Origin: Mycobacterium marseillense
GTDB taxonomy: Bacteria; Actinomycetota; Actinomycetes; Mycobacteriales; Mycobacteriaceae
Assembly: GCF_010731675.1 (NCBI RefSeq)
Contig: NZ_AP022584.1
Coordinates: 806,001 to 870,000 of the forward strand
Length of the DNA stretch: 64,000 bases
Direction: 5' to 3'
In this document: in pieces, positions 11,338-23,161 of the stretch
Layout of the letters: each line of letters begins with the position of its first letter
Position numbering within the stretch: position 1 is the first letter of the stretch
The notes under the pieces: generated by a model
What the model was told of the DNA's origin: nothing
Database searches by the model: none
What the model saw: the letters and a program-made list of their open reading frames with translations, nothing else
Program-made: the position numbers and the translations under genes

Positions 11338-12393
11338 TTGCCGATAAGCAACATTATGTCAGATAAGGTACGCCGTTTTCATCTGATGAATCACGGCCGT
11401 TCCGAGCGGCCCTCACCCGCAGCTCTGGGTCGAGTCGCCCAAAGCGCCTCGACGCCAACGGGTTTAGTGGATTGCGCCACGTGGTCGTGGACGCCGGCCA
11501 TCGTCGAGGAATTCTTCGCCGACCTCCGCGGCATCAAAGGGCGCGCGCAGTCGACGATCCGCGGGTATCAGAACGGCCTGAGGCTGTTCTGCTCCTACAT
11601 CGCCGACCCCGACTACGGCTGGGACCGAGTCTGCGAGCAACGTTTCGGCACACACCCAGCGCAGGTGTTCTTCGCCTGGAACACCGCCCCCCACGTTCAG
11701 GACAACGAACAGAGTCCTGAGAAGCGCCCGTTCACCAAACAAGAGCTTCAGGACTTCTTCGACCACGCCGACGATCAGGTGACGCTGATCGCCAACACCA
11801 AGAAGAAGGGCTGGCTGCCGGCCTACCGCGATGCCGTGATGTTCAAGGTCGCCTACTCCTACGGAGTGCGATTCAACGAGCTGCGGCACCTGCAGACCGT
11901 CGACTTCTCCCGCAACCCGCACGCACCGGAGTTCGGCCGCTACGGCGTGGTGAAGGTCCGCTACGGCAAGGCCAAGAAGGGCTCCCCACCCAAACGCCGC
12001 ACCGTGCTCACGGTCTTCGACTGGACACCAGACATCATCAGTGACTGGCTCACTCACGGGCAGCCCTACCTCGACGACGGCATCGACCTGTTCCCCAGTG
12101 AGCGCGGCGCCCTGGTCGCAGAACGAACCCTGCTGCGCAGATTCCGGCGGTACTGCAACGACCTCGAGCTGTCTTCAGGCCTGGATCTGCACTCGTTCCG
12201 GCGTTCCTACATCACCCACCTCATCGAAGACGGCTGGGACGCCAAGTTCGTCCAAGACCAGGCCGGCCACGAATACGCCAGCACCACATCGCTCTATACC
12301 GGCGTCTCGAGCGACTTCCGCACCCGCACCCTGCGCCGCGTCCTGGACCGGACCATCAAAGATGCCCTCTCCTTCGGAGAGGAGACCTCGTGA
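11338..12393 (+). CDS. tyrosine recombinase/integrase (module gene 1)
   Basis: Phage-type site-specific recombinase of up to 351 residues. The N-terminal SAM-like DNA-binding domain covers about residues 50-115 (TPAIVEEFFADLRG, STIRGYQNGLRLFCSYI). The catalytic set is complete: R178 in SYGVRFNELRHL, Lys near 213, H285-x-x-R288 in DLHSFRRSYITH, H311 in AGHEYASTT and Y320 in SLYTG. The start is uncertain: TTG 11338, ATG 11356 or ATG 11386 are in frame. A candidate attachment site (11378-11400) overlaps this 5' end. The stop overlaps the GTG of the HTH gene, so the three genes form one operon. It probably mobilises the downstream island. Confidence 0.9.
   Translation: MPISNIMSDKVRRFHLMNHGRSERPSPAALGRVAQSASTPTGLVDCATWSWTPAIVEEFFADLRGIKGRAQSTIRGYQNGLRLFCSYIADPDYGWDRVCEQRFGTHPAQVFFAWNTAPHVQDNEQSPEKRPFTKQELQDFFDHADDQVTLIANTKKKGWLPAYRDAVMFKVAYSYGVRFNELRHLQTVDFSRNPHAPEFGRYGVVKVRYGKAKKGSPPKRRTVLTVFDWTPDIISDWLTHGQPYLDDGIDLFPSERGALVAERTLLRRFRRYCNDLELSSGLDLHSFRRSYITHLIEDGWDAKFVQDQAGHEYASTTSLYTGVSSDFRTRTLRRVLDRTIKDALSFGEETS
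11378..11400. repeat. candidate left attachment repeat of the island
   Basis: TTCATC-T-GATGAA (11378-11390) is a perfect palindrome followed by TCACGGCCGT. The 21 bp from 11380 match 21060-21080 in 18 positions, in direct orientation, 9.7 kb away. A short inverted repeat around a central base resembles a tyrosine-recombinase core site; the attachment role is inferred. Confidence 0.35.
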
Positions 12394-12737
12394 AACGCGA
12401 CGTCGACTACACCTGGCGCCTCGCCGAGCTGATGGCCGCGCACGGCATGCACAACAGCACCGACCTCATCCCCCGTCTTGCTGAACGCGGAATACAGCTG
12501 TCCCGGCCCCAGGTCTACCGCATCGTGCACCAACGCCCCGAACGCGTCGCCCTGCAGTTGATGGCGGCACTGTGCGACATCCTCGGCTGCGGCGTCGAAG
12601 ACCTAGTCACCGTCACGGCCACCGACGCTCGCAAGAAGAAGACCGCGTCGGGCACAACTGCACCACCCAACGTCGTCGAACTCAACAAGTCCATCCGACC
12701 CCGACGAGCACGAGTCATCACCGATGGCAACGATTAA
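12390..12737 (+). CDS. HTH (XRE-like) protein of the recombinase module
   Basis: A 115-residue protein. The N-terminal 70 residues form an XRE/Cro-type helix-turn-helix: YTWRLAELMAAHGMHNSTDLIPRL, then ERGIQLSRPQVYRIVHQRP as turn and recognition helix, then LQLMAALCDILGCGVEDLVTV. The tail is basic (RKKKTAS, RPRRARV). GTG 12390 overlaps the recombinase stop, and its 3' end overlaps the next gene by 14 bp. It probably regulates the module or serves as a recombination directionality factor. This order of recombinase, HTH protein and zinc-finger recombinase recurs in actinobacterial genomes (established in general terms). Confidence 0.8.
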   Translation: MKRDVDYTWRLAELMAAHGMHNSTDLIPRLAERGIQLSRPQVYRIVHQRPERVALQLMAALCDILGCGVEDLVTVTATDARKKKTASGTTAPPNVVELNKSIRPRRARVITDGND

Positions 12738-14220
12738 CCCCACACCGCGATCCATCACCCGCGGGCGACCACGCGTCACTACCGGCGCCCTCGAATGCAG
12801 CCGATGCCACCGCATGGCCAACAAGCTGCGGGTCTACTGGCCCGGAGATCAGCTCTGCCACAGCTGCTTCTACACCGCGATGCGCACCCACGGCATCTGT
12901 CCCATCTGTGGACACGATGGCGTCTTACCCGGCCGCTGCGACCGGATCGACTCTCGCCCGGTCTGCCTGACTTGCGCCGGTATCCCTGGCAACTTCACTT
13001 GCAAAACGTGCCAGGGCGAAGGCGAGATCTACCGCTCCGGCCAGTGCGCCCGCTGCGCCCTGCGCGAGGACCTGTGCAAAATTCTGCTGCACCATCCCGC
13101 CGACCTCGCCGCCATGCAAACGCTGATCGAAGTGCTCTGTGGCGTTGACCGACCCGAAAGCATCCTGACCTGGAAACGCAATATCCAAGTACTGGAGTTG
13201 CTCGGCGGGATCACCTCCGGCGCAATACCGCTGACCCACGACGGCCTGACCGCTGCAGGATCCGGCCGCCATATCGATCACCTGCGCAGCCTGCTGCAAC
13301 ACCACGGACTGCTCCCACAACGCGACGAACACCTGGCCCGCTTCGAAATCTGGCTAGCCGACAAACTCGAAACTATCGACTCCCCCGCTGTTCGCGCCCC
13401 GGTCGAACAGTTCGCGACCTGGCACCATCTCCGACGGCTCCGCAGCGAATCGAAACCCGGCCAATCCTCGGATGGGCCAAAGCGTTCCGCGAAACAAGAA
13501 ATCACCGAGACCATTAAGTTTCTCACCTGGCTAGAACAGACCCACCTGCGCACCATCGCCAACTGCACACAACAAGACGTCGATGAATACCTCGCATCAG
13601 GCCCGACCACCCGCCACCTGATCCGAACATTCTTCATCTGGGCCAAGAAAAGCAAGCTCAACGTCGCGGTGCAGGTCGGCTTCCGAGAGGCGAGAACGAC
13701 CCACACAATCACGCAGGATCAACGACTGGCCTGGCTCAAAGAACTGCTCACCGGCGACTCCGAAAGTCTGCCCTACCGCGTCGCCGGCGTGCTGCTCCTG
13801 CTCTACGCCCAACCACTCACCAAGGTCGCCGCGCTGCAGACCACGGCGATCTCCCAAGCTGACGGAGAGACCCGCATCGCGTTGGGCAAAGACCCCGTCC
13901 CCGTCCCGGAACCATTCGCCTCCCAGCTCAACTACCACCTTCGCCACCGCCCCAACCTGCGCACCGGCGGTGGAGCCATCGGATCGCCCTGGCTCTTCAC
14001 CAGCAGCCGACCCGGCCGACACATTGACCCGCAGGCCATCATGCAGCGGCTGCGACGGCTCGGCATCAACCTGCAGGGGGCACGAAACACTGCCCTGCAG
14101 ATGCTTGTTTCCGAAATCCCCGCACCGCTTGTCGCTGAAATGCTCGGCTATAGTGACCAAGTCACCCAGAAACACGCGGCCGAAGCCGGCAACACCTGGG
14201 CCAAATACGTTCAGCCCTAA
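12724..14220 (+). CDS. zinc-finger protein with degenerate tyrosine-recombinase domain (module gene 3)
   Basis: A 498-residue partner recombinase. The N-terminal part has several Cys pairs able to form zinc ribbons: CSRCHRM, CHSCF, CPICGHDG, CLTCAG, CKTCQGEG and CARC within residues 24-116. The C-terminal half resembles a recombinase fold (ITETIKFLTWLEQTHLR; YRVAGVLLLLYAQPLTKV), but the catalytic signature is eroded: ARNTALQML stands where HxxR is expected and LGYSDQVTQKHAAEAG replaces the LGH...Y box. It is therefore likely a structural or targeting subunit. It overlaps the HTH gene by 14 bp. The element probably ends shortly after its stop codon or after the cargo genes. Confidence 0.8.
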   Translation: MATINPTPRSITRGRPRVTTGALECSRCHRMANKLRVYWPGDQLCHSCFYTAMRTHGICPICGHDGVLPGRCDRIDSRPVCLTCAGIPGNFTCKTCQGEGEIYRSGQCARCALREDLCKILLHHPADLAAMQTLIEVLCGVDRPESILTWKRNIQVLELLGGITSGAIPLTHDGLTAAGSGRHIDHLRSLLQHHGLLPQRDEHLARFEIWLADKLETIDSPAVRAPVEQFATWHHLRRLRSESKPGQSSDGPKRSAKQEITETIKFLTWLEQTHLRTIANCTQQDVDEYLASGPTTRHLIRTFFIWAKKSKLNVAVQVGFREARTTHTITQDQRLAWLKELLTGDSESLPYRVAGVLLLLYAQPLTKVAALQTTAISQADGETRIALGKDPVPVPEPFASQLNYHLRHRPNLRTGGGAIGSPWLFTSSRPGRHIDPQAIMQRLRRLGINLQGARNTALQMLVSEIPAPLVAEMLGYSDQVTQKHAAEAGNTWAKYVQP

Positions 14221-14242
14221 ACCTGTTATTTGCTAACAACAT

Positions 14243-14557
14243 TCACGGCGTTCGCTTACTCCTTGATCCCTGACGTTTCGGTTTGCGTTCGGGAAGCCCA
14301 TACCGCACGCGGAGCTCTTCCCCACTGATGGTCCGGCCCGCTGCATAATCTCTATCGGCCTGTGCCAGTTCCTCTACAAGCCCGGGCTGCGTCAACGCAT
14401 GCAACGTCTCTTGCAACGACTCGAGTTCGTCGACAGGCATCAGAATGGCCTTTGCCCCGCCCGGCGTCGAGATCATCACCGGCTCCCCCGAGTCTCGCAC
14501 CTGATCGACCAGCCGACCCAAGCTCTGCGCGGCGACGCGAACATCAATTGAGAGCAT
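14243..14557 (-). CDS. Phd/YefM-type antitoxin, no adjacent toxin
   Basis: A 104-residue antitoxin-like protein. The N-terminus MLSIDVRVAAQSLGRLVDQVRDSGEPVMIST and AILMPVDELESLQETLHALTQPGLVEEL match the Phd/YefM DNA-binding fold and linker. The basic C-terminal tail (ERKPKRQGSRSKRTP) is unusual. A strong GGAAGGGGAG lies before the ATG. A RelE- or Doc-type toxin would normally follow, but only 22 bp separate it from the convergent recombinase gene, and the upstream neighbour is the NACHT gene. It is thus an orphan antitoxin, either a relic or a regulator of the NACHT gene, or an anti-toxin decoy. Confidence 0.85.
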   Translation of the reverse strand: MLSIDVRVAAQSLGRLVDQVRDSGEPVMISTPGGAKAILMPVDELESLQETLHALTQPGLVEELAQADRDYAAGRTISGEELRVRYGLPERKPKRQGSRSKRTP

Positions 14558-14612
14558 TGCTCCCCTTCCTGCAGTCCGCTATCCCGTCTTCTGGGCGGTA
14601 CGCCCTGAGCAA

Positions 14613-14647
14613 TTGTCTAGCCATGGGAACTTGTCTGCAATGACAAG
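14613..14647. promoter_or_regulatory. candidate antitoxin operator
   Basis: CTTGTC (14630-14635), spacer TGCAAT, GACAAG (14642-14647) form a perfect inverted repeat 73 bp upstream of the antitoxin start. A further TTGTCT half site lies at 14613-14618. Phd-type antitoxins commonly bind such repeats; here this is inferred. Confidence 0.4.
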
Positions 14648-14666
14648 CCACGGGGCGTTACCTCGA

Positions 14667-17600
14667 TCAGCGGTAAGTGGCCGCCGTGTCCACCTTGAGC
14701 CACCGTTCTGAGCGGGCGACGCTGAGAAGCGAAGGCAAAGCTGTCTGACCACCCGTGCCTAAACTGTCTACTGGGTTCGACTGTGGTGCCTGCGCCCGAA
14801 GGCGATTGAGTGCATCCAGCGCGGCGTCGGTGGTATCGCCGGTCACTGGGCGCCTCTCCAGCCATCCGAAGCGTGCGATCTGCTCTGCCGCGCGTAGGAC
14901 AATCCGCCGCCGCAAGCCCGGGAGCTGTCCGAGGACCTCGGTGAGTTCGGGCAACAGCTCGGATACGACCGAGCCGGACGCGACGCACCACAGTGCCAAC
15001 GCCCATTCCGCTCGGCCGAGGTCATCGTCGATGGTCTCCAACTGCTCGCGCCACCAGCCGGCGTTCCCGCTACCTGCCCGTGTCCGAGCAAGAAGCTCGG
15101 ACGGGTGACCTGTGGACCCGAATGCCGTTGCCTCCGCGTGCTTGCTGTATGCGAGCCCGAACGGTGAGGCAGCGCCGATGATCGCGATCTCCGAGGAGAT
15201 CCAACACCGTCCGACGCGCTCGTGGATAGCGGCGGCGGTATCCGCCCACGGGAACGTGCTGTTTTTGTAGCCGGACCTGAACGCGCGTTTCTTAGCGACC
15301 TCCTCCCACGGTGAACGTGCCTTCCTGAGTTGGTTGACCGCCTCAGCTCGACGACGCTTCGGCCGGTCGTCGCCGGAGATGAACCCAGTCGTGGAACGGG
15401 TGAAGAACTCACCAGGCGCCAGAGCCACGGCGACTTGCGCCGGCATGGAGCAGGTCGAGGTGACGCACGGGCACTCGCCGTTCAATACCGCGGTGAGCAG
15501 CGCCTCCTCGAAGGAACCTCCGGGCTCCGGAGTCAGGCCCGTGCTGAGGAACAGTTCCGCGGCGCCGTCGGACAGGTCCATGTTGTTGAAGTCCGCGGTG
15601 GTCCCTGCGCCGGCCTCGCAGCAGGCCCCGATCGCCAGCCACGCGTTCTGCTGATCTGTGCCGATCGCTGCTGTGAGCTCCTCGTACCACCAGTTCCCGA
15701 ACTCACTGCGCTGGTTGAGAAGCTCTCGAAGCACCCGCACGCGCTGCGGGTTGGCGCTGTCACCGGGGTTCTTTCTGATCAATGTCGTCAGCCGCGACCA
15801 AGTCGGGTCGGCACCGGCGCCCGTCGGGTTGGGCAGCTCCGGCAGAGGCGTGATATCACGGCGGTCGAGCGCAGAAAGGAGGACGCCCACTCCCGGATCC
15901 GAGCAGAGTGCCGTCAGCACCTTGCGCGCCTCATGCGGCCGGCGCTGGAATACACCGTCGGTCAGCAGTGCCCACGCGGCGAGGTACGACGCGGAGGCCG
16001 ACGTGTGCGACAGCTCCTCTTCGACGCCAGCGGCCAGTACGTAGACGTCGCTGCCCTTCGCGTTGCCGCCGTAGAACCTGGCGGTGTTCAGCCAGTACGG
16101 GCGGCGTAGGAGCTCCCGCAAGACCGTTGTGCTGTCGAAGTGCGGGTTGTCCTCGCCGGCGTTGTGGTACAGGAATCGGGCGGCGAAGTACTCACGGAGC
16201 GAGAGCACCTCGAACTCGTAGGTGCCGTCCACCTGGCTGGTCAGGGCCCACAGGCGGTCGCTGACGCCCTCAAAGAGCTCGTCGACGATCGATTCTTGGT
16301 TGCCGTAGGTGCGCTGGAAGTGGCGCATCGCCGCCTTCAAGTCGTTGATGCTCATGCGACCGTTGATCTGCGACTCCTCGGTGTGCGCGTGCAGGTACCA
16401 GCCGAGGAACGGGATGATCTCGAGCAGCTCCTCCTTGTGGTCCTTCACGGCCTTGGGGTGCTTGTTCGCCTCGCGGGCGAGGAGGAGGTCGACGTACGTG
16501 TCGTAGAGGTCGGTCCGCTGCGTGGGTGTGGCTGCGCCCTGCTGGTGGAGAAGATCCAGCAAAATCGTCAGCTGCATCGGGTTCCCTGCAAGTTCGCGGA
16601 TGTACGGCTCGCGGCTCTTCTCTTGGAAGCTCCTGCGCAGCGCGCGGCCGTCCTTACTCCTGATCCCTCGGACGGCGCACCACTTGCGCAAGTAGTCGGC
16701 TCGTTGTTCGCCGGTGAGCTGGTTCAGCGTGATGATCTCGAACCTGTCCGGCGCAGGCTCCGGAAGCTCACCGGCACTGGGGCGCGTGGTGACGACCACC
16801 TTGAGTGGCTCGGTGTACGCCTTCCCCCGGCTGGCGAACGCGTTGATCTCGTTGACGATCCGACGCCGGATGTTGGCACTTCCAACCTCATCGAGTCCGT
16901 CGAGCACGACGAGACTGGGAACTCGCTCGAAGATCCCCTGCACCGTGTCGGCGGTGGCGGTGATACCGCCGCTCTCGTGCGTCATCAGGTCGGCGATGAA
17001 GCACTCGACGGTTGCCTTCTCGCCCTTGCGCGCCTTCTCCCTCTTGGGTTTGCGTTCGTCGGAGTTATCCCACACGTCATTGCCGGAGAGCCACAGCGCG
17101 TAGTCACTCAAGTCCAACCGGATCGGAAACCGCGGCTCTTCCAACGCAGGCAGCGTCTTCGGCCGCTCCGACTCGGGCACGAACGCGCTGCGGTGCACCT
17201 GGCAGATGTACTGGCTGAGGGTGGACTTGCCCTGCCCGGGGGCGCCTCGCACCAAGGTGAAGGGCGCTGGCGTTTGTAGCAGGTGATGCGCAGCGCCGCC
17301 GAGTTCGGTCGATGAGAGTGATCGCACTCGGGTTCTCTCCGGCGAGTGCACCAACTCCGCGGTGACATCGACGAAGAGGTCCACCATCCTCTTCCGGTCC
17401 ACCTCAGCTTGGCTGAACTTGACCCGCTGGTCGTCGTCCCACTGCGACGCGGCGACCTGCCGGATCAGCTTGCGGTCCGCCTGGTTCTTGGTGGCTCCGA
17501 CCTGTTCGGCGACGAGGAACCGGATGAGATCCCACCCGGCGAGCATGTCGGCGTAGGCCCACTTGATCGAGTCCTCGGAGTTGTCGAGCCATGAGTTGAG

Positions 17601-18023
17601 CGCCTCGCGCCAGATGCACGTGATCTCGTCGAAGCCGAGTTCCTTGGCGTACGCATCCAGCTTGTTGTTCAGTTGGGCGAAGGTACCGGTCCCGGGCTTG
17701 GCGGTGCTCGGCACGTTGGTCACCAGGACGTAGTGCCGCACACCTTCCTCCGACAGTCTCCGGAGGTTGTCCAGCTCCTTTTTCACGACGGCGTCCAGCC
17801 AGCTGACGGGGTTCTTTTCCGAGCCGGACACGGACCACTTGACCTGATAAATCAACACCGTCGACGGGTCGAGCTTGCGCTGCCCATCAATGCCGCCGTC
17901 GGCCTGGCGTAGCGCCATCGGGGTGAAGTTGGGGAACTGGGCGGCGAGCAGGGCGTTAACGAGCTGCTGGAAGTCGTGGTCGCCCAGGCGCTCGTAGAGG
18001 TAGCGGTGTCGGCTCTCGGGCAT
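14667..18023 (-). CDS. Mrr-like nuclease-NACHT STAND NTPase, candidate anti-phage protein
   Basis: A 1118-residue defence-type protein. Residues 1-150 hold an Mrr-like PD-(D/E)xK nuclease domain: FQQLVNALLAAQFP, D46 in ADGGIDG, and Q60-V-K62 in YQVKW. A NACHT ATPase follows: Walker A GAPGQGKST (260-268) and Walker B LVVLDGLDEV (371-380), with TTRPSAGE as a sensor-like arginine. Residues after about 550 form a long helical repeat-like sensor, including LSLREYFAARFL, which is typical after NACHT modules. This order is known from Avs and bNACHT anti-phage proteins, where ligand sensing triggers the effector. The start at 18023 has AGAGGAG 7 nt upstream; the ORF is open to 18086. It diverges from the HEPN gene. 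Confidence 0.85.
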   Translation of the reverse strand: MPESRHRYLYERLGDHDFQQLVNALLAAQFPNFTPMALRQADGGIDGQRKLDPSTVLIYQVKWSVSGSEKNPVSWLDAVVKKELDNLRRLSEEGVRHYVLVTNVPSTAKPGTGTFAQLNNKLDAYAKELGFDEITCIWREALNSWLDNSEDSIKWAYADMLAGWDLIRFLVAEQVGATKNQADRKLIRQVAASQWDDDQRVKFSQAEVDRKRMVDLFVDVTAELVHSPERTRVRSLSSTELGGAAHHLLQTPAPFTLVRGAPGQGKSTLSQYICQVHRSAFVPESERPKTLPALEEPRFPIRLDLSDYALWLSGNDVWDNSDERKPKREKARKGEKATVECFIADLMTHESGGITATADTVQGIFERVPSLVVLDGLDEVGSANIRRRIVNEINAFASRGKAYTEPLKVVVTTRPSAGELPEPAPDRFEIITLNQLTGEQRADYLRKWCAVRGIRSKDGRALRRSFQEKSREPYIRELAGNPMQLTILLDLLHQQGAATPTQRTDLYDTYVDLLLAREANKHPKAVKDHKEELLEIIPFLGWYLHAHTEESQINGRMSINDLKAAMRHFQRTYGNQESIVDELFEGVSDRLWALTSQVDGTYEFEVLSLREYFAARFLYHNAGEDNPHFDSTTVLRELLRRPYWLNTARFYGGNAKGSDVYVLAAGVEEELSHTSASASYLAAWALLTDGVFQRRPHEARKVLTALCSDPGVGVLLSALDRRDITPLPELPNPTGAGADPTWSRLTTLIRKNPGDSANPQRVRVLRELLNQRSEFGNWWYEELTAAIGTDQQNAWLAIGACCEAGAGTTADFNNMDLSDGAAELFLSTGLTPEPGGSFEEALLTAVLNGECPCVTSTCSMPAQVAVALAPGEFFTRSTTGFISGDDRPKRRRAEAVNQLRKARSPWEEVAKKRAFRSGYKNSTFPWADTAAAIHERVGRCWISSEIAIIGAASPFGLAYSKHAEATAFGSTGHPSELLARTRAGSGNAGWWREQLETIDDDLGRAEWALALWCVASGSVVSELLPELTEVLGQLPGLRRRIVLRAAEQIARFGWLERRPVTGDTTDAALDALNRLRAQAPQSNPVDSLGTGGQTALPSLLSVARSERWLKVDTAATYR

Positions 18024-18315
18024 GGGCTGACTCCTCTGCTTCACCCCGATCGTGCCGGTACTGCCGTCGGGACTCCGAACACTCAATGCCTATTGAACCC
18101 GGAGACACCGGTTCGATTCGGCAACTCAACGCGCGTGCATGTCGTACCGCAATTTGAGTGCCGAGATCGTCAGAGCCCAAGCTTCACCGTGCACGCGTCG
18201 TACCGTGCGGTCGCGACTGCTTCGAAAGCGCGACCAATACGGTCGTTGGCGGCTGAGAGCTCAAGACCACGGGGTGTGTCGGCTCGGTCATGTGTTGACG
18301 GCGCAAACTAAAGGG
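18024..18315. promoter_or_regulatory. divergent control region between NACHT and HEPN genes
   Basis: 292 bp separate the two divergent defence genes and should contain both promoters. The NACHT gene has a clear Shine-Dalgarno sequence; the HEPN start has only TAAAGGG directly before ATG. A TTGACG sits 24 bp before the HEPN start without a good -10 partner. No strong palindrome was seen. Confidence 0.35.
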
Positions 18316-19707
18316 ATGCAGTCAGCAAAGACGGGGCCTGTAGACGGGACGTTCTGGCAGATCGACACGCCCGAGCGCCAGGTTCGGGGCCAACTAACGA
18401 TTGCGCCGACACCCGTAATGGAGACGCTAGGACCGATCTTCCAAGAACGTGCTTACCGCGTCGAAGTGTCCCAGCACGGTGGAACCACCGTCATCCACAG
18501 CGGCGACTCGGACGATCACGTGGCCGACTGGTCCCCGCGCGACATTCACGGGGTGCTCGACAACGGGCAGCGGGTATCGCTGGTCGGCGCGCAGGGCGGG
18601 ATGAGAGATCCCAGTGGCACCTTTCCACCGCAGTACCGCCAACGGTTCGGCACAATCCGACACGCCATCCTCGACGTACACGTTGGCCGCGAGCAGGAAT
18701 TCTCTACCTGCAGATTTCGCCTCACCGGCCCTAATTGGCTGCGGCACCGCGACGGACGCGCCGAGACACTCGGAGGCGGCCATCTCATTTCCGTGACCGA
18801 GGGCAGCAATCACTGGATTGAGTTCATTCCCGCCGAGCCGATGAGCGTCCTGGACTACGACCGGTCGGTCCTGCACCCCATCGAGACGCTGGCGACTCTC
18901 GTCACCTCCAACCCTGCCGACACCGTGGAACTATCGGTTCGACAGTCCACCGACAGCCCCTGGCTCCGGGTGCACCGACACGAGGAGCCGACGCCAACCG
19001 GACACCATGAACTATTCGATGCCTCGTACCTCACCCCCGAGCGCGGCGCCCTCTGGATCGACTTTCGACAACGCAGCAACGGGCTCGACGCCGTCGTCGT
19101 CGACGACTTCAGCGGAGTGGCCGTACAGACCGCCGTGCTCACCCTCGCGTCCGTCGCCGAGGGCCTACACCGCCGAATCTATCGAGACAAACGACGCATA
19201 CCCGCACTGTCCAAATCCGACCTCAGAGCAGCACGAAAGGCAGCGCGCGCCGCAGCTCTAGAGTCGGTTCGTACCGCCGATCGCGGCGACCGTTTCGCGC
19301 TGACGGCGGCGGACCTCACGGCGTTCGGCGAAGCTATGGACAGCGCGTTCGGTCACATCAACGAGTCCACGTTTCGCACCATGATGGACGACCTGGTGGA
19401 CACCGCCGTCGCCGCGGTACCGGGCATCGTCGCCGAGTTCGCAGACTGGCCGGCCGCGATCCACTCCGTGCGCAACATCCTTGCCCACCGGGGCACCCAC
19501 GACGATCGTGACGCTCACGATCAATTCATCAACGCCCTGATAGCCGCGAGTTACTCGCTGCAATGGGTACTGCGCACCGTTCTACTCCTTCAAGCGCAAG
19601 TCGATGCGAGCGATATCGGCGAAGCCTATCGGCGGTCGTCGGCATACAACCACCATCAGACCAACGTCCGCGAATTCCTGAAGGGAACCGCATATGCACG
19701 ACGATAG
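18316..19707 (+). CDS. ApeA-like HEPN-domain protein, candidate anti-phage RNase
   Basis: A 463-residue protein with the layout of ApeA defence proteins: an N-terminal beta-rich domain of about 290 residues and a C-terminal HEPN domain. The start resembles ApeA N-termini (GTFWQIDTPERQVRGQLTI, then a segment on sugar-like TLGGGHLISVTEGSNHWIEF). The HEPN catalytic motif is R386-N-I-L-A-H391 in HSVRNILAHRGTH, fitting Rx4-6H, preceded by FRTMMDDLVDTAVAAVPGIV. The HEPN family cleaves RNA, commonly tRNA, so abortive infection is the likely outcome. It starts at ATG 18316; the upstream in-frame region has no good start. The SEC-C/HNH gene follows 51 bp later and is probably cotranscribed. Confidence 0.78.
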   Translation: MQSAKTGPVDGTFWQIDTPERQVRGQLTIAPTPVMETLGPIFQERAYRVEVSQHGGTTVIHSGDSDDHVADWSPRDIHGVLDNGQRVSLVGAQGGMRDPSGTFPPQYRQRFGTIRHAILDVHVGREQEFSTCRFRLTGPNWLRHRDGRAETLGGGHLISVTEGSNHWIEFIPAEPMSVLDYDRSVLHPIETLATLVTSNPADTVELSVRQSTDSPWLRVHRHEEPTPTGHHELFDASYLTPERGALWIDFRQRSNGLDAVVVDDFSGVAVQTAVLTLASVAEGLHRRIYRDKRRIPALSKSDLRAARKAARAAALESVRTADRGDRFALTAADLTAFGEAMDSAFGHINESTFRTMMDDLVDTAVAAVPGIVAEFADWPAAIHSVRNILAHRGTHDDRDAHDQFINALIAASYSLQWVLRTVLLLQAQVDASDIGEAYRRSSAYNHHQTNVREFLKGTAYARR

Positions 19708-19758
19708 GCGCGCGCCACTAACGGCCGCACCGCCCGCTAACAAGGGCACGATTCGCCC

Positions 19759-20724
19759 GTGGTGAAGCCTTTCACTCCCGCGGTGCGACCAGTGCCGTTC
19801 CATCACGATGGAAGTACCGCCGCATGGTGTAACGCACTGTGTCCCTGCGAATCTGGCCTGCCATCGGAAGACTGTCACCTCCACCGACCGACTGGAAAGT
19901 GGCGCCTACCCTCCTATCAGCCACGCCTGTCCGGACCCGTGACCGGATTCGGCCATCGCCGCTGCTATGCCGCCAGCACCAACGACTGCGACGCCAGACT
20001 GACCCTTGAGCACCCGCTAAGTAAGGGCATTCTCAAAGACATCGGCGACGGCACTACCGTGACAGCCAGCAATACCTACTGGCAACAGGGCTCTCCGACG
20101 CCAACTAGCCTTCCGATCACCACGATGGGCTCGAAGATGTTGTGTAACAGACACAATAACGCCCTGCATAAGTTCGACGACGCCGCGCTCGAGGTCTATC
20201 GGACGCTTGAGCGCTTCCAACTCGCACAGATTCGTCCCCCCGACCCTCACGGCAACGAATTCAACCTCGTCAGCGGCGAGCTCTTCGAACGATGGATGCT
20301 CAAGGCTCTGTGGGGCATGACCACCGGGGCCAAGACTGCACCCACCAGCATGCGAGACAAGCGCGAACAAAAGATGTTCATGCATTATCTCTTTCGGGAC
20401 GGACTACTACCTCGGGGGTGGGGCCTGTACATTCGGAGCCTCACGAAAAGCTTCGTACGTCAGTACACGACGGCCATGGAAACCAAAATCGAGGTTCGAG
20501 ACGACACCTTCCTCACCGGAGACATGACGCTCGGAGCATTTACATTCACGTTCGCTGCCGGAAAACTTGAAGCGGGCAACGGCGCGGTGGCCCACCACCG
20601 ACCCGATGGAATACGGATGTTCTCCCAGTTCGAGAATACCTGCAAGACTCTCGCATTCGCGTGGGACCACCAACGCCACGCGCCGGCAAACTTCGTCGAT
20701 ATCAATTTTCGCGGCAACCGATAG
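19759..20724 (+). CDS. SEC-C motif plus HNH-like nuclease protein
   Basis: A 321-residue protein. Near the N-terminus, C28-P-C30-ESG...DC39-H40 matches the SEC-C zinc motif (CPCxSG...CC/H). An HNH-like zinc nuclease site follows: C69, C77, E84-H85 in TLEHPLSKGIL and C129-x2-H132-N133 in LCNRHNNALHKFD. The remaining 180 residues (FERWMLKALWGM; RDKREQKMFMHYLF; NRxD-type loop RPDGIRMFSQFENT) match no domain I recognise. GTG 19759 is used; the first codon is followed by another GTG. Its position 51 bp after the HEPN gene and at the end of the island suggests a partner effector or modulator. Function is not established. Confidence 0.65.
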   Translation: MVKPFTPAVRPVPFHHDGSTAAWCNALCPCESGLPSEDCHLHRPTGKWRLPSYQPRLSGPVTGFGHRRCYAASTNDCDARLTLEHPLSKGILKDIGDGTTVTASNTYWQQGSPTPTSLPITTMGSKMLCNRHNNALHKFDDAALEVYRTLERFQLAQIRPPDPHGNEFNLVSGELFERWMLKALWGMTTGAKTAPTSMRDKREQKMFMHYLFRDGLLPRGWGLYIRSLTKSFVRQYTTAMETKIEVRDDTFLTGDMTLGAFTFTFAAGKLEAGNGAVAHHRPDGIRMFSQFENTCKTLAFAWDHQRHAPANFVDINFRGNR

Positions 20725-21274
20725 CCCAGCAGTTCAGGGCCAGCCGCGAAGCCACCAGTAGTTCTGTACCAATCGCCCCGTGCCCATGCAAGACCTGTGC
20801 GAACCTTTCAGAAGCCGCGGATCTATGCGGTATCCCGACCAAGTTTCTAAAAATGATGGCGCCTGACGGCCTAATCCCCGATGCCCATTCAGGCCGCATA
20901 GCGGGAGGACACGACGGGACGGAAATGGCGGGTATACCAGTACGCGCCTAGTACGGTGTTCAACACGCATTGCGCTCATTTCGAGCAACCCTCCCCTGGT
21001 GCGCCCGATCTCTCGACGCCAACGTCTTACGGCACTTTCGATAGTCCACCGTCGCTTCTCATCAGATGAATCACGACGGTGCCGTGCGACTCTCGCCTAA
21101 CGCCTCGGCAAGTTTGGGCGAAAATCCCTCGGCAGCAGCAGCTTTGGGTGGATGGCACCCAATGTACTCAAACCCATCCTTGTCAGGTGCCGGTTCAATC
21201 GAGTGTCTTTCGACGTTTCGGCTGCTTGGTTGCCCGCCGCCACTACCCATTACCCGTGGGCGGGAACCCAAAGG
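20725..21274. other. 550-bp gap at the right end of the island
   Basis: No well-supported gene. A reading frame at about 20780-20951 encodes SEAADLCGIPTKFLKMM and GLIPDAHSGRI, faintly like an excisionase or HTH fragment, but it lacks a start and any further domain. The candidate right attachment repeat lies at 21059-21080. Confidence 0.4.
21059..21080. repeat. candidate right attachment repeat of the island
   Basis: TCATC-A-GATGA palindrome (21059-21069) followed by ATCACGACGGT; 18 of 21 bases match the left copy at 11380-11400 in the same orientation. It lies after the last defence gene. Confidence 0.35.
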
Positions 21275-21958
21275 TCAATCGGCGATAAGCTCCCGGAACA
21301 GGGTGCATTCGACCGCGTGCCACTCACGGACCAGGATCTCGTTGGTCTGCGGGTCGGTGACCACTTCGGCACGCCAGGGAAGGCATTCCGGGCAGGCCAC
21401 GATCTCATATGCCTCGCCGACTTCGTTGAAGGCGCGCAGGTCGACCGGCGCAATCGGCGCGTGAAAGGTTATGTCTGGCCGCGGAGGTCGCGGGTGTTCT
21501 CGTCTTTGTCGTAGTCGGGGCGACGTCGGACGGCGGGCCTGTTCGGCGCGTTCGTCGTCGGCGAAGTCGTCGGGAGTCAGGGCCCGGCCCAGTCGCCCCT
21601 CGAGGCAACCGATGCACAGAAACCCGCTGGGGTGCCCGGCAGTGGCCCACAAAACCTCGTCGACCTTGTAGGTCTCGTCCCAGGTATCTGCGCCGCAGTC
21701 TTCGCAACGGCATTCGAGCGCGACGACGACCCACGTGAAGGACAGCGCCGCCCCATGGGTCATGGTGACGTCACGCCGGCCGTCGCCGCCACGAACCAGC
21801 GACACGGTCACGCCATGCTCACGGCAGTAGCCGTCGACCGCGTCGTCGACAGCGTCTTCTACTTCGCTCAGCGTCTGGAGTTCGTCGTCGAGGACGGCGC
21901 CGTCCCGACTGAGCTGCCACACGTGGTGCACACCTGCCGTCAGCCGGTATTCGAACAC
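21275..21958 (-). CDS. hypothetical Cys-pair protein
   Basis: A 227-residue protein that I do not recognise. It has three Cys pairs, CRCEDCGADTWD, CIGCLEG and CPECLPW, which could bind one or two zinc ions, on acidic surrounding sequence (TLSEVEDAVDDAVDG). A basic Arg-Pro stretch at about residues 140-165 (RPTSPRLRQRREHPRPPRPD) is likely disordered. Start ATG 21958 is followed by FEYRLTAGVHHVWQLSRDG. The next gene upstream on the same strand starts at 22797 and ends 38 bp away, so both may be cotranscribed. It lies just outside the right island repeat and may be host or cargo. Confidence 0.6.
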   Translation of the reverse strand: MFEYRLTAGVHHVWQLSRDGAVLDDELQTLSEVEDAVDDAVDGYCREHGVTVSLVRGGDGRRDVTMTHGAALSFTWVVVALECRCEDCGADTWDETYKVDEVLWATAGHPSGFLCIGCLEGRLGRALTPDDFADDERAEQARRPTSPRLRQRREHPRPPRPDITFHAPIAPVDLRAFNEVGEAYEIVACPECLPWRAEVVTDPQTNEILVREWHAVECTLFRELIAD

Positions 21959-21996
21959 CTGATCCTCCCCGGGTCACGAGAAAATACAATGCTGCG

Positions 21997-22797
21997 CTAC
22001 GCGCCAGCGGCTTTCAGATTGTCCAGCGTCTCGATCACGTGGTCCACCAAAATCGGCATGACCACAGTGACCGACTTCTGCTCGGCCACTGTGGGGAGTT
22101 CGATGTTTTCGGTGTACCCGAACTCAACGTTCAGAGGCACCGATACATCGGCGGGTGAATCGCCCGGCTTCCGCAAGGGACGGCGGAGGGTCACAGAAGC
22201 GACCAGCGCCCCATCCGTCATCTCGCGCGGCTTGTTATCGACCCTTTCGACGTCGCCAGTCGTGCTAGTGATGTCGAAAGCTTCGTTGCTGTAGCTGACC
22301 ACACGCACTTGGCGGTGCTTGTCACGGTTGACCAGTCCGTTGAGCAGAGCGAACGAATGCCAATCGGGTTTCTGCGCCTTAAATGGTTGGGAGTCTTCGA
22401 TGACCTGCAGCACAGCCGGTTCCGTGAGCGGTGCGAGCTTGGCCTGAGCACCTGCCCATTCGGAAGCCTTCGCGATCAGTGGATACTGCAGCGCACGCTC
22501 CTGCGCCGCGGTCAACGTTTGCCTGGCTGATGCGTGGCCAAACAGGGCGTGGTCGAGCGCTGCTCGAAGGTTGGTCAGGATGTCGCCAACAATGAGTCCC
22601 CAGTTCTCCGGGGGTGGCTGCTTGACTTTCACCCGAAAGTTGACGACCACCAGCTCAGGCTGAAACATGTGATCGACAACCTCCCGCACGAATTCGTGGG
22701 GTTCGGACGCTCGGTACTCGTCTACCGACGCTCGCAGTATGGCGAGGTGTTCCTGCGCCCGTCTCGCCTTTGCATACGCACTATCCAGTGATCCCAC
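21997..22797 (-). CDS. conserved hypothetical actinobacterial protein
   Basis: A 266-residue protein beginning at GTG 22797 (VGSLDSAYAKARRAQEHLAILRASVDEY). A helical N-terminal region is followed by HMFQPELVVVNFRVKVKQPPPENWGLIVGDILTNLRAALDHALF, and later NGLVNRDKHRQVRVV, which together look like a helix-hairpin structure with conserved RxxxDH and RDKHR elements. The pattern recurs in actinobacterial hypothetical proteins; no function is known to me. The ORF is open further upstream to 22935, but that part is basic and compositionally different. It may form an operon with the Cys-pair gene. Confidence 0.65.
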   Translation of the reverse strand: MGSLDSAYAKARRAQEHLAILRASVDEYRASEPHEFVREVVDHMFQPELVVVNFRVKVKQPPPENWGLIVGDILTNLRAALDHALFGHASARQTLTAAQERALQYPLIAKASEWAGAQAKLAPLTEPAVLQVIEDSQPFKAQKPDWHSFALLNGLVNRDKHRQVRVVSYSNEAFDITSTTGDVERVDNKPREMTDGALVASVTLRRPLRKPGDSPADVSVPLNVEFGYTENIELPTVAEQKSVTVVMPILVDHVIETLDNLKAAGA

Positions 22798-23161
22798 GCG
22801 AATATGCTGCAGAACCCACCGAGTCGGGTCAAGGGATCTCGCGGGCCGGTGGTAGCAAACATTCCCCAGTCCCGATCTAGAGTGGCCGTGGCGGCATCTG
22901 CACTGCAAACGGGGCCCGAACCTCCCTCGGTGCATCCGGAGCGATTGCGGCCGGCATCGGTGCTGAATACGACGGAATCGAATACGGCGGGTTACCAGTA
23001 AAAAGGACCGCGCATTGGATCGATGATCTGATCGCTCCTCCGTTTCGCCTGCGGCCGAGATGGTCGCCGCGGAGCTCGCAGGAAAAAACGTGTGGTTTGC
23101 GGTTGACTGTCATTCGACGCGAGCAGCGCTCGCGAGGGGGCCAACCGCGAGAGGAACGACT
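22798..23161. other. 364-bp intergenic region before the chloroperoxidase-like gene
   Basis: No gene supported. Perfect inverted repeat CGCGAGC-AGC-GCTCGCG at 23118-23134 lies 27 bp upstream of the start codon at 23162 and could form a leader hairpin. The ribosome-binding site GAGAGGA is 6 nt before the ATG. Confidence 0.4.

Follow-up and report, generated by a model that had tools for sequence, protein, structure and literature searches.

An ApeA-type HEPN gene and its SEC-C-like, HNH-like neighbour in Mycobacterium marseillense: a candidate facultative two-gene anti-phage module

Does a HEPN ribonuclease gene of the anti-phage ApeA type act together with the gene that follows it, or do the two travel side by side as unrelated cargo? 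The question arose from a 64,000-nucleotide stretch of the Mycobacterium marseillense genome (NZ_AP022584.1, positions 806,001 to 870,000; hereafter the window, to which coordinates refer unless a contig is named), in which a reading made from the sequence alone had proposed a two-gene defence system. Both frames were found where that sequence-only reading had placed them, open, on the + strand and 51 nucleotides (nt) apart: the stop codon of the ApeA-type gene (18316..19707) ends at 19707, the intergenic gap spans 19708..19758, and the second gene, here called the partner (19759..20724), opens with GTG at 19759. We tentatively regard the pair as a facultative anti-phage module of two genes, carried by a mobile defence island and combining a HEPN RNase with a zinc, HNH-like protein, and give this reading nearly even weight.

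The first gene encodes a protein of 463 amino acids with the ApeA layout that had been claimed for it. Its N-terminus matched Pfam ApeA_NTD1 (PF18862; E-value 2.7e-10, 40.6 bits, cut-off 25.5) and its C-terminus HEPN_Apea (PF18739; 4.4e-9, 37.3 bits, cut-off 24.4), and the HEPN motif R386-NILA-H391 was located at 19471..19488 (+ strand). In an alignment of 45 proteins (the window protein and 44 of the 47 relatives found), R386, N387, A390 and H391 were at least 90% conserved. The AlphaFold2 (AF2) model, with a predicted local distance difference test score (pLDDT) of 88.6 and a predicted template modelling score (pTM) of 0.85, contained mainly strands up to residue 220 and helices after it, and alignment with Csm6 gave weak support for the HEPN assignment. 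The frame is open upstream from 18139; the ATG at 18316, a provisional start, agrees with the frame of the copy on M. rufum plasmid NZ_CP092428.2, the annotation of which starts the gene 8 codons further in. Non-synonymous over synonymous divergence (dN/dS) between the window gene and this plasmid copy was 0.15/0.84, the proteins being 74% identical.

The partner protein (321 amino acids) appears to comprise a SEC-C-like zinc motif, an HNH-like site and a beta-rich C-terminal part, and was modelled with a pLDDT of 89.3 and a pTM of 0.91. A protein database yielded 24 relatives at E≤1e-3, and profile A2 recovered 85 proteins at E≤1e-5; judged by these sequences, the partner is a genuine protein family. 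SEC-C (PF02810) was the sole Pfam match of the window partner (E 0.0024), with 18.1 bits falling below the cut-off of 20.4; the motif (C28-P-C30 ... C39-H40; 19840..19878, + strand) is of the SEC-C type C-x-C-x-S-G ... C-H. A relative in phage Mao1 exceeded the cut-off with 24.9 bits, 46 of the 69 aligned family members matched SEC-C at E≤1, and profile A3 matched SecA zinc-motif peptides (E 0.008-0.012); we consider the assignment borderline. Comparison with the plasmid copy gave a dN/dS of 0.11/1.17, indicating, together with the value for the ApeA gene, purifying selection on both genes. The M. rufum annotation begins the partner approximately 100 codons late and lacks the zinc motif; because residues 1-100 alone gave 0.12/1.25, the omitted stretch is coding.

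HNH nucleases carry a signature of cysteines, a D/E-H pair and then C-x2-C/H-N/H, in that order. The same order was present in the partner between C69 and N133 (19963..20157, + strand), as C69, C77, E84-H85 and C129-x2-H132-N133. Across 20 aligned rows (the window and 19 relatives from metagenomes, mycobacteria, Streptomyces, Pseudonocardia and phage Mao1, with rows P0021 and L036 representing a near-identical protein), C69, D76, C77, E84, H85, C129, H132, N133 and D140 were invariant. A wider alignment of 69 rows retained C129, H132 and N133 without exception and C69, C77, E84 and H85 at 90% or more. The AF2 model gave the order strand-EH (strand 81-84), strand-LC (strand 125-129) and helix-HN (helix 130-135), which fits an HNH site. 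We read the partner as a zinc, possibly HNH-type, nucleic-acid-acting accessory protein.

To what extent do the two genes adjoin each other elsewhere? Among 396 genomes of the genus, 34 matched the partner (40 rows, or 36 loci once pieces were joined) and 32 matched ApeA (37 rows). Neighbourhoods were taken up to 8 kb per side for all 36 partner loci, the window included, less at contig ends, and up to 7 kb per side for 30 of the 31 other ApeA matches, some of which were fragments or lay on contigs ending early; at two of these 30 the scan did not recover the ApeA frame. Six of the 36 partner loci had an adjoining ApeA gene. They fall into two lineages, whose ApeAs belong to distant subfamilies and whose gene orders are opposite: the window, G236, G342 (at the same place as on the M. 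rufum plasmid), and G238, G272 and G212, which share one common paired locus. The concern that the genes might not co-occur in other genomes was therefore not borne out. Both were present in 10 of the 396 genomes versus 2.7 expected (hypergeometric P about 1e-4), a P that is too small because near relatives were counted, with loci common to G000/G236 and to G212/G238/G272. When the genus was searched again with the L040 partner as query, 22 of 385 genomes matched at E≤1e-20 (26 loci); within flanks of up to 1.5 kb these loci revealed no new pair, ApeA being seen only at five known places and as a fragment in G367.

At the locus common to G238, G272 and G212 the partner comes first, and if ApeA begins with GTG there, its start and the partner stop overlap by 14 nt. 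This second ApeA is 28% identical to that of the window over residues 174-450, exceeded both Pfam cut-offs and matched the Cas13-ApeA models of PADLOC at 6e-7. The fragment in G367, a seventh partner locus, lies 39 nt after a window-clade partner and is a short frame with the N-terminus of an ApeA of the second subfamily. It matched ApeA_NTD1 at 0.03, below the cut-off, and our own ApeA profile at 0.017; 39 of its residues are 51% identical to the G238 ApeA (blastp 7e-11 against two sequences only), after which the match stops, and it showed no useful match to the window ApeA. It is followed, 587 nt on, by the gene of a Mutator-family transposase. This arrangement indicates that the other ApeA subfamily was at one time adjacent to a partner of the window type. 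In the trees, the paired partners fell into two clades, as did the paired ApeAs, with a long-branch warning at the deepest join of the ApeA tree.

Searches also extended beyond the genus. Profile A1, run against 397 genomes of the order, found four, all within the genus, a weak negative since five candidates were scored per genome; PF18739 was present in 24 of the 397. Sixteen plasmid records matched the partner, 15 of them at below 60% identity, and seven matched ApeA, M. rufum alone matching both. Scans of genome contigs for relatives gave none in one case and four loci in another, and a scan of viral contigs gave two loci. P0005 and P0031 may form a metagenomic pair, the length listed for the longest contig being 23,484 bases for each.

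Two other neighbours were considered as possible further HEPN proteins. In G279, a 348-amino-acid protein (L047:6796-7842, - strand) follows the partner after 5 nt and contains RNAALH and a C-terminal CxxC...CxxC stretch; its relatives occurred on 18 plasmid records, 16 of them from Streptomyces. The L053 neighbour carries RGENAH and RWRKEH. Neither gained support from a Pfam, NCBIfam or PADLOC family, nor the L047 protein from the Protein Data Bank (PDB), so both are kept as leads; the L047 protein is possibly another HEPN type.

The reading as a module draws on the ApeA and HEPN domains with their conserved R-N-x2-A-H, the invariant partner residues and adjacency at six of 36 loci in two lineages, and further on the G367 combination, the co-occurrence in 10 genomes against 2.7, the terminase context of the Mao1 copy and an island with NACHT and recombinase genes. 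By analogy with its family, the beta-rich N-terminal domain of ApeA would sense infection and the C-terminal HEPN part would cut RNA and stop the cell. The partner, with its SEC-C-like finger and HNH-like site, would bind and probably nick DNA, and, when present, may widen or trigger the response.

Several results weigh against such a module. At 29 of the 36 partner loci there was no ApeA gene and no fragment of one, none of the 30 further ApeA loci inspected had the partner, and the genes lie apart in four of the 10 genomes having both (G239, G281, G384 and G392); the inflated co-occurrence P belongs here as well. Each protein exists also without the other, and pairing at six of 36 loci of the partner, with a fragment at one more, and at none of 30 other ApeA loci inspected implies that neither gene needs the other. 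Of the pairing proposed earlier, linkage held up, in more than one lineage and as a minority, optional arrangement. No HEPN neighbour was annotated beside the partner on the four non-genus plasmid relatives that were opened along with M. rufum. The ApeA genes of the window and G236 are too similar (dN/dS 0.0068/0.0086, 98% identical) for constraint to be demonstrable, and the window ApeA matched no PADLOC model at E≤1, the Cas13-ApeA models included. As for the HNH-like site, its residues were confirmed and its profile and fold were not: no HNH family appeared among the Pfam matches of the 69 members at E≤1, an hhalign comparison of partner residues 60-160 with 33 pattern-selected HNH segments reached 4.7% over 9 columns (controls: 0.1% for the C-terminal and 0.6% for the N-terminal part), and PDB fold searches with the whole partner model, in which the small site was not folded separately, returned no match. 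Of the two folds expected from the sequence-only reading, HEPN was recovered by Pfam and, weakly, by the Csm6 alignment, and HNH is a candidate. With the motif and the predicted strand/helix order as its basis, we call the site HNH-like and stop short of assigning the partner to HNH.

Against what is known, the ApeA-type HEPN defence protein is familiar, and the recurrent SEC-C-like/HNH-like neighbour gene would be the new element. The window protein resembles ApeA in both Pfam domains and its R-x4-H; it differs in lacking a PADLOC match at E≤1, which the second paired lineage has, and in the gene that follows it. ApeA is listed in the literature, in the sections available, among HEPN defence proteins, and the available part of a survey of HEPN proteins describes it as embedded in restriction-modification operons of epsilonproteobacteria (Anantharaman, 2013; PMC3710099). 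The HEPN-DNase links and fusions of restriction systems in that survey resemble our pair in coupling a HEPN RNase with a possible HNH-type DNase; they differ in that HNH links there belong to other HEPN families and SEC-C has no occurrence in the sections available (PMC3710099). In the sequence-only reading, an ApeA partner with SEC-C and HNH parts is not known to have been described; a literature search for an ApeA or HEPN partner with either part, with most subscription journals outside its coverage, recognised no description among the papers listed. The limited literature consulted contained no description of an ApeA trigger.

The strongest competitor, which we consider a real if somewhat doubtful possibility, is that two independent, single-gene pieces of mobile-element cargo ended up next to each other in islands, with no joint function. 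All the unpaired loci counted above speak for it, as do the recombinases beside the pair, its occurrence once on a plasmid and the gene order that differs between the two lineages. It accounts less readily for the same two families adjoining in three combinations (14-nt overlap, 39 nt and 51 nt), when random adjacency would be about 0.001 per genome with both genes (assuming 3 kb per side and 6 Mb), a figure that clustering in islands raises by an unquantified factor, or for the retention of the pair between the window and the M. rufum plasmid despite ApeA divergence to 74% identity. Going beyond the module reading, the partner might be a swappable SEC-C/HNH-like, DNA-acting adaptor recruited beside HEPN RNases of differing families (two subfamilies of ApeA, in three combinations; the G279 neighbour may be a third type), such that recognition or cutting of phage DNA would license RNA cleavage in a modular DNA-to-RNA abortive-infection switch; we think this unlikely.

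Phage copies bear on the origin of the partner. Gene 3 of phage Mao1 belongs to the partner family (L130:1727-2920, + strand) and shares 1 nt with the end of the terminase gene, and phages Mask and Sejanus show a match at nearly the Mao1 coordinates, spanning two annotated genes. Since the Mao1 copy follows a terminase, the partner can exist without ApeA, and since no ApeA relatives were found in phages, a further point against a fixed pair, a role for the partner without ApeA is suggested. HNH proteins have been described in the packaging machines of phages (PMC5304195); the Mao1 gene resembles them in its position directly after the terminase, and the family differs in its SEC-C-like finger, its long C-terminal part and the lack of an HNH profile match. 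An origin of the partner as a phage protein of homing or packaging type that islands captured, ApeA joining it later, is favoured by these copies and by broken or truncated unpaired copies in G228, G263, G281, G373, G384, G052, G233 and G156 (the G195 copy shows a stop in the L040-partner search only). Given that none of the six paired copies contains a stop and that they fall into two clades of the partner tree, we find this explanation improbable. A toxin-antitoxin-like pair, in which the zinc protein restrains the HEPN RNase, seems equally improbable: two closely spaced same-strand genes, HEPN toxins with partner antitoxins such as HEPN/MNT (PMC7641770, in the part available) and the RNAALH protein 5 nt after the G279 partner would suit it, but the partner is absent at the 30 other ApeA loci examined, partner copies without ApeA include one by a phage terminase, and invariant nuclease-like residues would be needless in a mere inhibitor.

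The surroundings of the pair in the window are those of an island. Outside the pair, a divergent gene (14667..18086, - strand) encodes a NACHT protein (Pfam NACHT 5.9e-7) with a possibly nuclease-like N-terminus and weak PADLOC matches (3e-4 and 7e-4, one to an REase-bearing model); Mycobacterium gordonae (86.7%) and Rhodococcus fascians (76.8%) carry close DNA relatives of this gene on plasmids, annotated there as 'large ATP-binding protein'. A mobile-element gene set upstream of the pair (11338..14220, + strand) comprises a tyrosine recombinase (11338-12393; Phage_integrase 1.7e-17), a small gene (12390-12737) and a zinc-motif recombinase-like gene (12724-14220; Phage_integrase 0.0095, below cut-off). 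Also present is a Phd/YefM-type antitoxin gene (14243-14557, - strand; Pfam 6.5e-13), beside which no toxin gene was noticed, no search having been made for one. The block 11759-23002 is 98% identical in G236 to the end of the fetched sequence, at least 11.2 kb. The pair on the M. rufum plasmid comes after a tyrosine recombinase, an HTH gene and a small gene; this last gene is intact there, and a remnant of it follows the window pair (20784..20912, + strand; tblastn 53% over 43 amino acids, E 4e-7). With recombinase genes nearby in both places, the pair looks like mobile-element cargo. Relatives of the three recombinase-set genes (L119:9603-11684, - strand), the last at 62% identity, were also seen near a partnerless ApeA locus in G315, so the same type of element may carry ApeA genes repeatedly.

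ApeA has so far been handled as a one-protein RNase defence. If the module reading is true, the partner would add a DNA-acting arm to HEPN defence, and its recurrence as an accessory gene, along with the invariant nuclease-like site, would offer a handle on ApeA activation. The partner family itself, known in Pfam just through a borderline SEC-C motif, is put on a testable footing in mycobacteria.
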